Positions 4,704 through 56,916 of a stretch of 64,000 bases of DNA are shown here, piece by piece. The translations under genes and the position numbers were made by a program. The stretch is from Nitrospira japonica (GTDB lineage: Bacteria > Nitrospirota > Nitrospiria > Nitrospirales > Nitrospiraceae). The DNA is taken from NCBI RefSeq assembly GCF_900169565.1, contig NZ_LT828648.1, forward strand, positions 684,876 through 748,875, in the 5' to 3' direction. The notes below the pieces were generated by a model, which ran no database searches, was not told the DNA's origin, and saw only the letters and a program-made list of their open reading frames with translations. Numbering within the stretch: position 1 is the stretch's first letter; each line of letters begins with the position of its first letter.

Positions 4704-6371
4704 TCAGGGGGAAGACTGGTCGGAAGATCGATCTCTGGCGAGTAATTTATACTCAATGCTGTCAGCCAAGGCCTGCCAACTTGCCTCCATGATGTTCTCC
4801 GAGACCCCGACCGTCCCCCACTTGTCTTTATGATCTCCCGACTCGATGAGGACACGAACCTTGGATTCCGTGCCACGATTGGCGGAAAGAACTCTCACCT
4901 TGTAGTCGAGCAGCTTGACTTCACGGAGCTCCGGATAAAAACGTTCCAATGACTTCCGGAGGGCATGATCCAGCGCATTCACCGGCCCGGCGCCCGTTCC
5001 TTGGGCATGTGCGACGGTCTCATCCACCTTGACCGTAACCATGGCCTCGGAGCTCGAGGTTCCGTCATCTTGCTTTCTCTCGACCACCACGCGAAAGCCC
5101 AGCAACTGAAACGACGGAGTGTGGTTTCCCATAGCCTTCCGCATGAGCAACTCGAAGGAACCTTCCGCTCCTTCGAACTGATACCCCTGATTTTCCCGTT
5201 CCTTCAGGGTTTCCACGAGTTCTGCAACCTTGGAGTGATCCTTTGCAATCGTCAGTCCGTACGACTCAACCTTTTCCAGAATGCCGCTCCGACCGGCATA
5301 ATCGGACACGAGCATGCGTTGCCGATTGCCGACCATGGCAGGATCGATATGCTCGTACGTCGCCGGATTCTTGAGCACGGCGTGGATATGGACGCCGCCT
5401 TTATGCGCAAACGCCGCGTCCCCAACGTACGGCTGATGCTTATTGGGCATGAGGTTGGCGATTTCCGTCACGAAACCTGACACGTCCTTCAGACGGCCGA
5501 GTCGATCCCCCAATCCCGGCCGCTTCATCTTCAACTGCAGATTCGGAACGATGGACGTCAGGTTGGCATTCCCGCATCGCTCTCCGATCCCGTTGATTGT
5601 TCCCTGCACCTGGGTGACGCCCGTTTCAATCGCCATGAGGGAATTGGCGACCGCCATTTCACAGTCGTTGTGGGCATGGATTCCAAGAGGAATCGAGCAT
5701 TCCGCTTGCACGGCACGACAGATCTCGCCGACCTCCCACGGCATCGACCCGCCGTTCGTATCGCAGAGAATGATGCGCTCTGCACCGGCGGCCACCGCCG
5801 CGCGAATCGTTTTCAAGGCATAGTCGGGATCGGCCTTATATCCGTCGAAAAAATGCTCCGCGTCATAGAAGACCCGGCGTCCTTTGGACTTCAAATGCTC
5901 GATGGAATCCTTAATGAGCTCAAGGTTCTTGCCGAGGGCGATGCCCAGAGCGTCCGTGACCTGGAACGTCCAGCTTTTCCCGAACAGCGTGATGGTCTGG
6001 GTGTCGGCGGAAAGCAGCGCCTGAATCGTAGGGTCTTTGTCGACCGGATTGCTGGCCTTACGCGTGGAACCGAACGCCACCACGCTGGCATGCTGTAGCG
6101 GGATTGTCTTGATGATGCGAAAGAATTCGATGTCTTTAGGGTTGGCCCCGGGCCAACCGCCCTCGATAAAATGAACTCCCAGGTCATCCAGCTTCTGGGC
6201 GATGCGGATCTTGTCGTCAACGGAAAAACTGACGTCCTCGGCCTGCGCACCGTCACGCAATGTGGTGTCGTATATTTCAAGCGCCGGGGACTTCGGCAAC
6301 GACGCAAGCGATGCGTCGGAGCGATCGGCAGCCCGACGCTGAGGGTTGCGTGCTGGAGGGCGTGTCGGCAT
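4704..6371 (-). CDS. cimA: (R)-citramalate synthase
   Basis: Condenses pyruvate with acetyl-CoA to citramalate, the first step of the threonine-independent route to 2-oxobutyrate and isoleucine. The HMGL-like TIM barrel opens with LEIYDTTLRDGAQAEDVSFS, carrying the catalytic Arg-Asp pair. HAHNDCEMAVANSL supplies the metal-binding His-x-His and LCDTNGG is also present. The C-terminal LeuA-type regulatory domain occupies roughly residues 410-540. At about 555 residues it matches CimA (EC 2.3.3.21) better than 2-isopropylmalate synthase or homocitrate synthase. Start choice is uncertain: ATG at 6371, or GTG at 6392 for seven more residues, neither with a clear ribosome-binding site. It is last in the aspartate-family operon, 38-59 bp after lysC. 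Confidence 0.88.
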   Translation of the reverse strand: MPTRPPARNPQRRAADRSDASLASLPKSPALEIYDTTLRDGAQAEDVSFSVDDKIRIAQKLDDLGVHFIEGGWPGANPKDIEFFRIIKTIPLQHASVVAFGSTRKASNPVDKDPTIQALLSADTQTITLFGKSWTFQVTDALGIALGKNLELIKDSIEHLKSKGRRVFYDAEHFFDGYKADPDYALKTIRAAVAAGAERIILCDTNGGSMPWEVGEICRAVQAECSIPLGIHAHNDCEMAVANSLMAIETGVTQVQGTINGIGERCGNANLTSIVPNLQLKMKRPGLGDRLGRLKDVSGFVTEIANLMPNKHQPYVGDAAFAHKGGVHIHAVLKNPATYEHIDPAMVGNRQRMLVSDYAGRSGILEKVESYGLTIAKDHSKVAELVETLKERENQGYQFEGAEGSFELLMRKAMGNHTPSFQLLGFRVVVERKQDDGTSSSEAMVTVKVDETVAHAQGTGAGPVNALDHALRKSLERFYPELREVKLLDYKVRVLSANRGTESKVRVLIESGDHKDKWGTVGVSENIMEASWQALADSIEYKLLARDRSSDQSSP

Positions 6372-6430
6372 GACGAAGAGGGTACCAGGCACAGGCCGAT
6401 TCTGTCGAGACTCAAATCACCGCGCAGAAA

Positions 6431-7672
6431 CTACTTCGCCGCTCGGTCGTCGTTCCGAGGCTGGTCCAGGCCGAATGCCGAGTGCAGCGACCGCATGGCC
6501 AGTTCAAGATATTTTTCATCGATGACGCAGGAGATCTTGATTTCCGAGGTGCTGATCATGATGATGTTGACGCCCTCTTGCGACAGCACTTCGAACATCT
6601 TGGCGGCCACCCCCGAGTGCGAGCGCATCCCTACCCCGACCAGCGAGACTTTTGCGATCGCCTCGGTGACGGAGACGGACTTCGCCCCGATGGTCCTGGC
6701 CACGTCCTGGATGAGCGGGACGGCCTTGTTCACATCCACCCGAGGGATCGTAAAGGAAATGTCGGTCAAGGCGGCTTGACTCATGTTTTGGATGATCACG
6801 TCGACAAGGATGTTGGCCTTGGCCACCGGCCCGAAGAGACCGGCCGCTATGCCCGGCTTGTCCGGTACTCCGACGATGGTGACCTTGGCCTGATTCCGGT
6901 CGCCCGTGACTCCTGAAACCGCGACGGCCTCCATGTCTCTGTCTTCGCGTGTCACAAGCGTCCCCTTTCCTTCCTTGAAACTCGAATTGACCTCCAGCGG
7001 CACATTGAACTTCGCCGCAAATTCGACGGAGCGGCTCTGTAGGACTTTTGCTCCGAGACTGGCCATCTCCAACATTTCTTCATATGAGATCTTGTCGATC
7101 CGCCGCGCTGACGGCACGATATTGGGATCCGTAGTATACACGCCGTCCACGTCCGTGAAGATCACGCATCGATCGGCCTTGAGCGACGCCGCCAACGCGA
7201 CCGCCGTCAGGTCAGACCCCCCGCGTCCCAAGGTCGTGACATCCGATTGCTGGTTGATCCCCTGGAAGCCGGCCACAACTGGAATGACGCCCCTTGTCAG
7301 CGATTCGCGGATACGCTCCGCCGTCACCTTGGTGATGCGGGCCTTGGTATGCGCACTATCCGTCAGGATGCCGACCTGACGACCGGTGAACGACCGGGCA
7401 TCGAGATGACGGCTTCGCAGCGCCATCGCCAGAAGGGCGATGGTCACTCGTTCACCGGTAGAAAGCAGCATGTCGAGTTCTCGTTCATCCGGCAGAGGAG
7501 CCATTTCGTGCGCAAGACGCAACAAGCGATCCGTCTCCCCGCTCATTGCCGATAACACCACGACGACTTGATGCCCATCCTTACAGGCACGTTCGACGTT
7601 GTCGGCAACCCGATGAATCCGCTCGACCGTCCCCACGGAGGTTCCGCCGTATTTCTGAACGATCAGGGACAT
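6431..7672 (-). CDS. lysC: Aspartate kinase
   Basis: Phosphorylates aspartate to open the lysine, threonine and methionine pathways. The ATG at 7672 gives the diagnostic [14 protein letters not shown]. The kinase domain is followed by two ACT domains (about residues 265-413), consistent with feedback control by lysine and/or threonine. The 413-residue length fits the single-function enzymes with C-terminal ACT pairs. Residues before this methionine in the open frame have no homology and overlap the upstream gene. It starts 4 bp after the mutase-like gene, indicating cotranscription. Confidence 0.96.
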
Positions 7673-54073: not shown

Positions 54074-54319
54074 TTACTTGGTCTTCTTCACAAATGCTTT
54101 GTAGATGCGCCCGGACTGGGCCTGTTCCTCTTCGAGCCCCAGCATCTGATGTCCCGTCGTATCGCACCAGGCCGGCATGTCTTTTTTGATACCCTCATCG
54201 TCGGAGACGACCTCGAGGACTTGTCCCAGAGCCAATTCCTTGATTTTTTTCGACGTCATAATGATCGGCATGGGACAAAAATACCCCAGCGTATCGAGCG
54301 TCACATCAGCGGTGATCAT
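54074..54319 (-). CDS. TusA-family sulfur carrier protein
   Basis: An 81-residue TusA/SirA-like protein. The persulfide-carrying cysteine is in TLGYFCPMPIIMTSKKIKEL (the Cys-Pro-x-Pro motif). LALGQVLEVVSDDEGIKKDM is the typical second half. The ATG at 54319 follows GACGGGGG. The frame is open to a TTG at 54361 that overlaps the dsrE stop. It is cotranscribed with the DsrE-like gene. TusA-DsrE2 pairs relay sulfur in thiosulfate and sulfur oxidisers; no rhodanese is present here. Confidence 0.88.
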   Translation of the reverse strand: MITADVTLDTLGYFCPMPIIMTSKKIKELALGQVLEVVSDDEGIKKDMPAWCDTTGHQMLGLEEEQAQSGRIYKAFVKKTK

Positions 54320-54357
54320 GGTACCCCCGTCACGCATGACGGCGTGAATATCGCCCG

Positions 54358-54888
54358 TCAAATGAAGAGATTGACGCTACCGTGCTTCGCCTCGGCCAAA
54401 TACGTCGTGACACCCGCGAATTGGTCTACGCCGTCGATCAGGGTATCCTTCGTGATACCCATGAGTCCCATCGTGGTCGTGCATGCGATGAACCGGACTC
54501 CGAGGTCCATCGCCGTGGCCATCAATTCAGGCACACCCGGCATCCGGCTCTGCTTCATCACCCTGTGCATCATTCCTGTTCCGATTCCTCCGAAATGGAA
54601 GCGGGACAGCGGAAGGGTCTCGGCGCCGCCTTTGTTCAACAATCCGAACATGCGTCGAAGCCAGTCCTTGGCGGAACTCGTCGCACCTTTCCGGCGGATG
54701 GCGTTCAATCCCCAGAAGGTGAAGAATATCGTGACCTGCATTCCCATTGCCGCCGCCCCGGTTGCGATGATGAACGCCGCCATTGCGCGGTCGAGATCGC
54801 CGCTCAACAGCACGATCGTCACGCGGTCAGGCTTCGAAGCCTGCAGATCGGACAAGTTGACCGCGGGGTCCAGTTGCGTCGTCGTCAT
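54358..54888 (-). CDS. DsrE/DsrF-like (DsrE2-type) protein
   Basis: A 176-residue protein with RVTIVLLSGDLDRAMAAFII opening the fold, a membrane-like helix GAAAMGMQVTIFFTFWGL (the DsrE2 type), and FIACTTTMGLMGITKDTLID with the conserved active cysteine near residue 140. DsrE2 proteins are sulfurtransferase partners of TusA. It has its own strong promoter at 54939-54968 and runs directly into the tusA-like gene, giving a two-gene operon. Confidence 0.88.
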   Translation of the reverse strand: MTTTQLDPAVNLSDLQASKPDRVTIVLLSGDLDRAMAAFIIATGAAAMGMQVTIFFTFWGLNAIRRKGATSSAKDWLRRMFGLLNKGGAETLPLSRFHFGGIGTGMMHRVMKQSRMPGVPELMATAMDLGVRFIACTTTMGLMGITKDTLIDGVDQFAGVTTYLAEAKHGSVNLFI

Positions 54889-55077: not shown

Positions 55078-55106
55078 TTGACCTTCGGAAACTCGCTCGT
55101 TATAGT
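55078..55106 (+). promoter_or_regulatory. Sigma-70 promoter of the Rieske oxygenase gene
   Basis: TTGACC and TATAGT at 17-base spacing, each with five of six consensus positions. The transcript would start about 53 bases before the ATG at 55166. Confidence 0.6.
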
Positions 55107-55165: not shown

Positions 55166-56251
55166 ATGAACTCAGACTCGATCGTACAACCAAGACCAGC
55201 CAAGAGTGCGCCGCTTTTCGGATTTTGGTATCCCGCCTGCCGCAGTTCCGAACTCGGACCCGGCATGCTGAAAGGTACCATTCTACTCGGCCTGCCCATC
55301 GTCGTATGCAAAACGGATCACGGTGTCGTGGCCGCCATGCGCGATATTTGCCCCCACCGGGGCATGCCGTTGTCGTTCGGGCGGATGCGGGGCGATTGCG
55401 TGGAGTGCGCCTACCACGGATGGCAGTTCGACCCGAAGGGTCGATGTCGGACGATTCCTGCGCTGGTCCAGGATTCCCCCGTTCAAACGGACAAGATCGG
55501 TGTCACGAACTACCCGTGCCGGGAACGGGACGGATATGTCTGGGTCTTCATCCCCGACTCTCAACGCCCGGATCAACCAATTCCTGATGTTCCGCCGCTG
55601 CCCTTGCCCTCTACGTCCTATCGGATGATCCAACTTTCCACATTGCTCGACTGTGCGATCGACGACGGCATCGTCGGCCTGATAGATCCGGCTCACGGCC
55701 CATTCGTCCATCAAAGTTCCTGGTGGCGCACCGCAGCCGAGATGCGTGAGAAGGCGAAGACCTTTGAACCGATTCCCTACGGATTCCGCATGGTGCCCCA
55801 CGCCGCCTCCATGAACAGCGCATACAAGCTGCTCAATCGGTTGTATCCCGGACCGCTCATGACGACCATCGACTTTGTATTGCCCAATCAGAGATTTGAG
55901 TTCGTCCAAATCGGAAACACCTTCATGTCGAATCGAACGACCGTGACGCCGATCTCTGATCAGCAATGCCGAATCGACTTCTGCGCAGCCTGGAACACCC
56001 TGAAATGGCTCCCTTTCGCCAAAACTCTTTTTCGCTACTTCGGCAATATGTTCTTGTCGCAGGATAAGTTGGCGATGGAACGCCAAGCGGTGGGCCTCAG
56101 ATACAAGCCGGCCATGATGCTGATCGACGACGCGGACACGCCGGCGAAGTGGTATTACAAGCTCAAGGCCGCCCACCTCGACTCTCTGCAAACCGGATTG
56201 CCGCTCGACCATCCGCTGAAAGGCCGTGTGACGCTTCGCTGGAGAAGTTGA
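55166..56251 (+). CDS. Rieske non-heme iron oxygenase
   Basis: A 361-residue oxygenase. The Rieske cluster ligands are in CPHRGMPLSFG and CAYHGWQFDPKG near residues 55-80. The mononuclear iron site is seen in LIDPAHGPFVHQS near 175, giving Asp-x2-His-x4-His. Homologous enzymes hydroxylate or demethylate rings, and the substrate is unknown. No reductase or ferredoxin is adjacent; the small Rieske protein at 31497 or another carrier could donate electrons. Its stop is 2 bp before a secreted Lon-like gene, so both are likely cotranscribed. Confidence 0.85.
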   Translation: MNSDSIVQPRPAKSAPLFGFWYPACRSSELGPGMLKGTILLGLPIVVCKTDHGVVAAMRDICPHRGMPLSFGRMRGDCVECAYHGWQFDPKGRCRTIPALVQDSPVQTDKIGVTNYPCRERDGYVWVFIPDSQRPDQPIPDVPPLPLPSTSYRMIQLSTLLDCAIDDGIVGLIDPAHGPFVHQSSWWRTAAEMREKAKTFEPIPYGFRMVPHAASMNSAYKLLNRLYPGPLMTTIDFVLPNQRFEFVQIGNTFMSNRTTVTPISDQQCRIDFCAAWNTLKWLPFAKTLFRYFGNMFLSQDKLAMERQAVGLRYKPAMMLIDDADTPAKWYYKLKAAHLDSLQTGLPLDHPLKGRVTLRWRS

Positions 56252-56253
56252 GG

Positions 56254-56916
56254 ATGTCGAGCGGTTTCCGACGCCCGAACCCGTTCCTCATGGCGTGCCT
56301 GCTCGCGCTCCTCCCTTTTTCACCGGCCCCCGCATTCGACAATCTCCACGTCGCATCCGTGCCCGCCTTGGCCGTTCTCAGCGATGGACGGACGGGAGCC
56401 GTCCACTACATCGCCCTTCAGATCTCTTCCGACCCCGGAGCGGACGGACCGGTGATTCAATTCAGCGAGATCAATTTGGGAGGCGGTTCGCTGGTCGGGG
56501 ACGACTGGAAGGCCGGCGTCCGGCAGGCCGTGCTGACCGCCTTGCGCCATCTCGGAATGGACGGACGTGATTGGGTGGTCACCGTCAAGAATCGATCCCA
56601 CAATGCCATGACCGACGGCATGAGCGCGAGCGGCGCGGTCGCAGTCGGCATCATGGCGGCCTGGCGTGGCGACGCCATACGACCCGGCGTGGCCATGACC
56701 GGCCAAATCGCGCCCAACGGCGACATTCTCGGCGTCGGCAGCGTTCCTCAGAAAGTCGAAGCGGCCGCAAGAGAGCAGTTCAACACGGTGCTCGTGCCGC
56801 GCGGACAATCCAATATGGGAGACGGGAACTTCGGCAGTCAGGCTCGGCGAGTGGCCGTCATCGAAGTGGGCACGTTGGATGAAGCCTATCACGCGATGGC
56901 CGGCCCGCGGTACTGA
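56254..56916 (+). CDS. Secreted stand-alone Lon-type (S16) protease domain
   Basis: A 220-residue exported protein with a signal peptide (FLMACLLALLPFSPAPAFD). Its main domain matches the proteolytic domain of Lon: MTDGMSASGAVAVGIMAAW holds the Ser of GPSAG. VAMTGQIAPNGDILGVG and VPQKVEAAAREQF hold the Lys. The spacing Ser to Lys is 43 residues, exactly as Ser679-Lys722 of E. coli Lon. No AAA+ domain or membrane helix is attached, so it would act outside the cytoplasm without ATP. GGAG lies about 9 bases before the ATG. Confidence 0.8.
   Translation: MSSGFRRPNPFLMACLLALLPFSPAPAFDNLHVASVPALAVLSDGRTGAVHYIALQISSDPGADGPVIQFSEINLGGGSLVGDDWKAGVRQAVLTALRHLGMDGRDWVVTVKNRSHNAMTDGMSASGAVAVGIMAAWRGDAIRPGVAMTGQIAPNGDILGVGSVPQKVEAAAREQFNTVLVPRGQSNMGDGNFGSQARRVAVIEVGTLDEAYHAMAGPRY

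Follow-up and report, generated by a model that had tools for sequence, protein, structure and literature searches.

In textbooks, Lon figures as the cytoplasmic protease that is driven by ATP. Members of this group that dispense with ATP or with the ATPase are also on record: MtaLonC is an ATP-independent Lon-like protease that, in the absence of ATP, breaks down unfolded substrates but leaves folded ones intact (PMC3391209); SepM is a cell-surface protease with a Lon domain, a Ser-Lys dyad and no ATPase (PMC11197336). In an early survey, proteins containing only the Lon_C domain already accounted for 39 of the 117 S16 proteins (PMC2605481). The preliminary description of the locus presented here, which called a secreted, ATP-free Lon domain next to an oxidase an unfamiliar pair, was therefore too strongly worded, MtaLonC and SepM being known. 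Lon_C-only proteins are likewise not novel, and what appears to be new, judging from sequence, is a form that is at the same time bare and exported. Under the terms that we tried, no match was found in the literature for a stand-alone Lon domain bearing a signal peptide, and the paper that combines Nitrospira, Rieske and Lon protease is concerned, in the portion available, with archaea and not with an oxygenase-Lon pair.

The window analysed here is a stretch of 64,000 nucleotides from Nitrospira japonica, part of a complete 4.08-Mb genome. Two of its plus-strand genes, coding for a Rieske-type oxygenase and a putatively exported Lon proteolytic domain (Table 1), are separated by only 2 bp (TGA GG ATG, from the oxygenase stop to the Lon-domain start), as first reported. 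The sigma-70-like promoter ahead of them carries 10 of the 12 consensus bases and is the sole plus-strand site in the scanned region, in which two sites were found against 0.6 expected from shuffles. The same element (TTGAC[CG]-17/18-TATA[GT]T) stands just 5' of the oxygenase start in about 25–28 related loci from several genera, that is, in most relatives, and is retained ahead of oxygenase remnants at three loci (L052, L117, and L121). We infer that both genes would be read as one transcription unit from this promoter, in line with the shared promoter originally proposed. At three loci with Lon and no oxygenase (L136, L139, and L140), another promoter-like sequence was seen by eye just upstream (TTGCCA or TTGCGG, a spacing of 16–17, and TATGCT or TACGCT).

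Table 1. Features of the oxygenase-Lon locus, in window coordinates.
Feature	Position	Strand	Basis
tusA-dsrE2 sulfur-carrier pair, divergent from the oxygenase	54074-54888	-	own promoter-like site
Divergent promoter-like site TTGACA-18-TATAGT, towards dsrE2/tusA	54968-54939	-	11 of 12 consensus bases
Sigma-70-like promoter TTGACC-17-TATAGT before the oxygenase and Lon genes	55078-55106	+	promoter scan and conservation in relatives
Rieske-type oxygenase gene, 361 aa, no signal peptide	55166-56251	+	ORF and Pfam
Rieske [2Fe-2S] ligands C62-x-H64 ... C81-x2-H84	55349-55417	+	sequence; invariant in 12 orthologues
Mononuclear iron motif D174-x2-H177-x4-H182	55685-55711	+	sequence; invariant in 12 orthologues
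GGAG motif, likely serving the Lon-domain gene as ribosome-binding site	56241-56244	+	direct reading; 9 bases 5' of the ATG, within the oxygenase 3' end
Putatively exported stand-alone Lon (S16) proteolytic-domain gene, 220 aa	56254-56916	+	ORF, Pfam and model
Sec signal peptide (predicted), residues 1 to about 27 (...SPAPA|F)	56254-56334	+	direct reading and hydrophobic N-termini of homologues; model of low confidence here
Ser124 codon, catalytic serine by alignment	56623-56625	+	alignment with homologues and solved Lon structures
Lys167 codon, catalytic lysine by alignment	56752-56754	+	alignment with homologues and solved Lon structures

The second product matches Pfam Lon_C (PF05362) at 41.8 bits against a cut-off of 21.1, with nothing else above cut-off; Pfam found no AAA+ ATPase domain in the chain and, besides Lon_C, gave a weak match to ChlI. 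In NCBIfam it is matched best by LonB models (52.0 and 50.6 bits), and among proteins of solved structure its sequence comes closest to archaeal Lon proteolytic domains. The AlphaFold model has a mean pLDDT of 78, with values below 50 only in residues 1–9 and 17–28 and two later stretches of moderate confidence. Residues 32–219 of this model match the proteolytic domain of E. coli LonA (1rr9; Z 25.4, rmsd 2.1 Å over 175 residues), with a Foldseek probability of 1.00 for the Lon proteolytic-domain fold, so that the predicted mature protein consists solely of a whole Lon proteolytic domain, to which all of its 192 or so residues belong. A spacing of 43 residues, that of E. coli Lon, separates Ser124 from Lys167; the two align with the dyad of the solved Lon structures, within one ungapped stretch that also contains the Lon motifs DGMSAS ... 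MTG ... VPQKVEAA. Both are invariant in 27 aligned homologues with identities to the window protein down to 29%, where they represent two of the 18 invariant columns. A Sec-type hydrophobic N-terminus was present in 42 of the 43 Lon homologues tested and no conserved lipobox was found in the N-termini of these 43, so that Sec export is likely. The features initially described for this protein have thus held, namely a predicted signal peptide followed by a Lon-type domain, the Ser and Lys with their Lon-like spacing, and the missing ATPase part, and alignment puts the two residues in the structural site.

The first product contains a Rieske domain (PF00355, 82.4 bits), and its C-terminal domain gave only a weak match to VanA_C (20 bits, below the 23.5 cut-off). 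The structural model falls below a pLDDT of 50 from residue 146 on, which makes the catalytic half unreliable. A role in sterol or hopanoid metabolism was rejected, the match to SdmA being too weak (76.9 bits against a cut-off of 600). In three genera (g3, g4, and g8), an oxygenase orthologue is found at another location, followed by a ferredoxin-thioredoxin reductase catalytic subunit, a neighbour that hints at a ferredoxin-linked electron supply; in two genomes (G008 and G009) an M28 peptidase also follows these two genes. Coordinates for these neighbourhoods are L185:3906-5597, L182:2328-4030, and L186:6267-6680, and in L185 and L182 the M28 peptidase after the oxygenase has a hydrophobic N-terminus. 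A further paralogue of the Rieske oxygenase, with an identity of about 35%, occurs widely in genus g5 (L190, L191, and L195–L203); a selenocysteine reading of the paralogue was discarded, the flagged TGA lying outside the coding frame and none being found inside on re-reading. At one locus (L116 of G053, 5288-7014), the oxygenase is 59% identical to that of the window and resembles the genus g5 oxygenase, the KefC-like protein groups with genus g9, and the Lon is as close to the window's as the g9 Lons are. The oxygenase allele there seems to have been replaced in place.

We consider it probable that the locus encodes a periplasmic peptidase that needs no ATP and, on the same transcript, a cytoplasmic oxygenase unrelated to it, their adjacency being historical. 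The first product would be a cytoplasmic Rieske-type monooxygenase, similar to VanA or pheophorbide oxygenase, working separately. The second would be exported by Sec and lose its signal peptide, leaving in the periplasm a Lon proteolytic domain with Ser124 as the nucleophile and Lys167 as the base. Having no ATPase, this domain would be limited to cleaving peptides and polypeptides that are unfolded or flexible. Lon proteolytic domains in isolation are weak peptidases, so this one might need a partner. Periplasmic cleavage without ATP is proposed by analogy with MtaLonC (PMC3391209) and SepM (PMC11197336), and we infer likewise the single transcript, the export, the activity, the substrates and the order of events (see below).

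Within the family Nitrospiraceae, 144 of 147 genomes match the Lon-domain query, a tally that includes ordinary Lon genes. At an E-value of 1e-9, matches were obtained in 89 of the 296 genomes of the phylum, all of those among the matches listed falling into three families of the order Nitrospirales, with none in other Nitrospirota orders among the genomes listed. Many of these matches come from small ORFs of full length and thus represent putatively exported Lon-only paralogues, and the genome of the window itself has two such genes, the one described here and another at G000:C1:2340778-2341422. A tighter profile scan of genome contigs, insensitive outside the phylum, returned Nitrospira and other Nitrospirota records only. 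A viral origin was rejected, as no relative was found in viral contigs, and so were plasmid relatives, for which we obtained only weak partial matches, several of them to ordinary Lon genes. A second exported Lon-only paralogue, about 30–35% identical, occupies another locus (L051:4776-5474 and the syntenic L056–L060), and in L057–L060 it is found near genes resembling scpA/scpB. Another exported paralogue with no adjacent oxygenase (L147:1434-2126) has Asn at the position of the catalytic Ser (GGPNASAA) and is possibly inactive.

Several diverged exported Lon-only paralogues per Nitrospirales genome suggest separate substrates, which would suit a peptidase with a specific processing task, such as SepM performs on a pheromone, better than a general scavenger of unfolded proteins. 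SepM, an extracellular ATP-free Lon-domain protease, is a precedent (PMC11197336). However, the window protein has no PDZ or other recognition domain and no candidate substrate gene is adjacent to it, which leaves us doubtful of a dedicated processing role. A tentative extension of our preferred reading, namely a periplasmic peptidase beside an unrelated oxygenase, would give the Nitrospirales a family of periplasmic, ATP-independent, bare Lon peptidases, often more than one per genome and with separate substrates, of which that of the window would be co-expressed with the oxygenase, both responding to the same condition.

A Lon orthologue (identity of at least 42%) was found in 49 of the 147 Nitrospiraceae genomes, and in 35 of these 49 the gene is immediately preceded, on its own strand, by sequence derived from the oxygenase. 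Of these adjacent oxygenases, 32 are intact, and the other three, in G005, G084, and G127, are eroded; remnants occur in G059 and G134 too. An intact oxygenase directly upstream of Lon, at one conserved locus, is therefore a feature of 32 of the 147 genomes, and the pair sought in relatives after the preliminary description is present there; in one of the 32 (G111, L152), the Lon gene looks frameshifted. Gaps between the two genes are short and the pairs are spread over several genera. The syntenic order is nth, FTCD, tusA, dsrE2, (oxygenase), (Lon), a KefC-like antiporter gene, and HAD.

The INDEPENDENCE of the oxygenase and Lon genes was examined on a KefC-like protein tree that covers 45 locus copies. 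Lon stands without the oxygenase in G356, a genome of the sister family, and in basal genera. Most of the locus copies with the oxygenase belong to a supported clade of 34 or to a pair (g22) separate from it. Both G356 and three g4 genomes do have the oxygenase, but on a contig other than that of Lon. Oxygenase without Lon is common, with at least six forced label changes on the tree, and eroded oxygenase beside intact Lon requires at least three (L119, where the contig ends just before Lon, is uninformative on the oxygenase). In G005, G059, and G084, oxygenase deletions have left the old promoter ahead of an intact Lon, at 470, 252, and 466 bases, respectively, from its ATG. Lon dN/dS values are 0.17–0.26 in pairs where one or both genomes lost the oxygenase, so Lon is under purifying selection without the oxygenase too. 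Given the repeated loss of each gene without the other, the two look like neighbours that share a promoter and not like partners in one machine. From the tree, Lon would be the older resident of the locus, between dsrE2 and the KefC-like gene, and the oxygenase, bringing its own promoter, would later have become its upstream neighbour, Lon then being expressed from that promoter; open basal forks leave the root and the direction of oxygenase gain not firmly fixed. Each gene would be retained for its own function.

The functional coupling put forward initially fares worse. It would place the oxygenase and the exported Lon in one process; for example, the oxygenase might produce or alter a compound, and Lon might handle its consequences on the envelope side, such as damaged or modified proteins. 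The 32 intact pairs with their short gaps in several genera, the conserved common promoter, and the location elsewhere of the oxygenase next to another putative exported peptidase (M28) and the ferredoxin-thioredoxin reductase subunit are in its favour. Nevertheless, time and again one gene occurs alone or disappears while the other stays, and purifying selection on Lon persists without the oxygenase. Furthermore, no signal peptide is present on the oxygenase, which should place the two products in different compartments, and the whole locus is syntenic, unrelated genes included, so that adjacency is cheap to keep. We therefore regard coupling as improbable; gene order in the 32 genomes could reflect a mild benefit of co-expression. 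Least credible of all is a Lon-domain protein devoid of protease activity, with a structural or binding role, which the Asn-bearing paralogue would favour and the invariance of Ser124 and Lys167 in the 27 homologues speaks against.

A Lon domain that is bare, exported and maintained by selection throughout an order of nitrifiers of environmental importance (the Nitrospirales, in which Nitrospira is nitrite-oxidising) would mean that this domain has a use by itself beyond the cytoplasm. It would also offer a very small system for the study of ATP-free Lon catalysis. The history of the locus would also illustrate that a conserved operon with a 2-bp gap need not imply a common function.

Compared with known systems, the oxygenase resembles VanA and pheophorbide a oxygenase in its Rieske [2Fe-2S] domain and its D-x2-H-x4-H iron motif, although its C-terminal domain is only weakly matched by that of VanA. 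The Lon-domain protein shares with the LonA and LonB proteolytic domains (PF05362, MEROPS S16) the whole fold and the Ser-Lys dyad with its 43-residue spacing, but it lacks the AAA+ module and any N-terminal or membrane-insertion domain, and carries instead a predicted signal peptide for export. With MtaLonC it has in common the Lon protease domain and, as predicted for the window protein, ATP-free working; LonC, however, keeps a large degenerate AAA-like N-terminal part, whereas the window protein is just a signal peptide and a protease domain. SepM, from Streptococcus, includes a PDZ domain and a transmembrane segment; the window protein gave no PDZ match and only 12.1 bits with the SepM model NF041438 (cut-off 200). 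Like SepM, the window protein would be an extracytoplasmic Lon-domain Ser-Lys protease without an ATPase.
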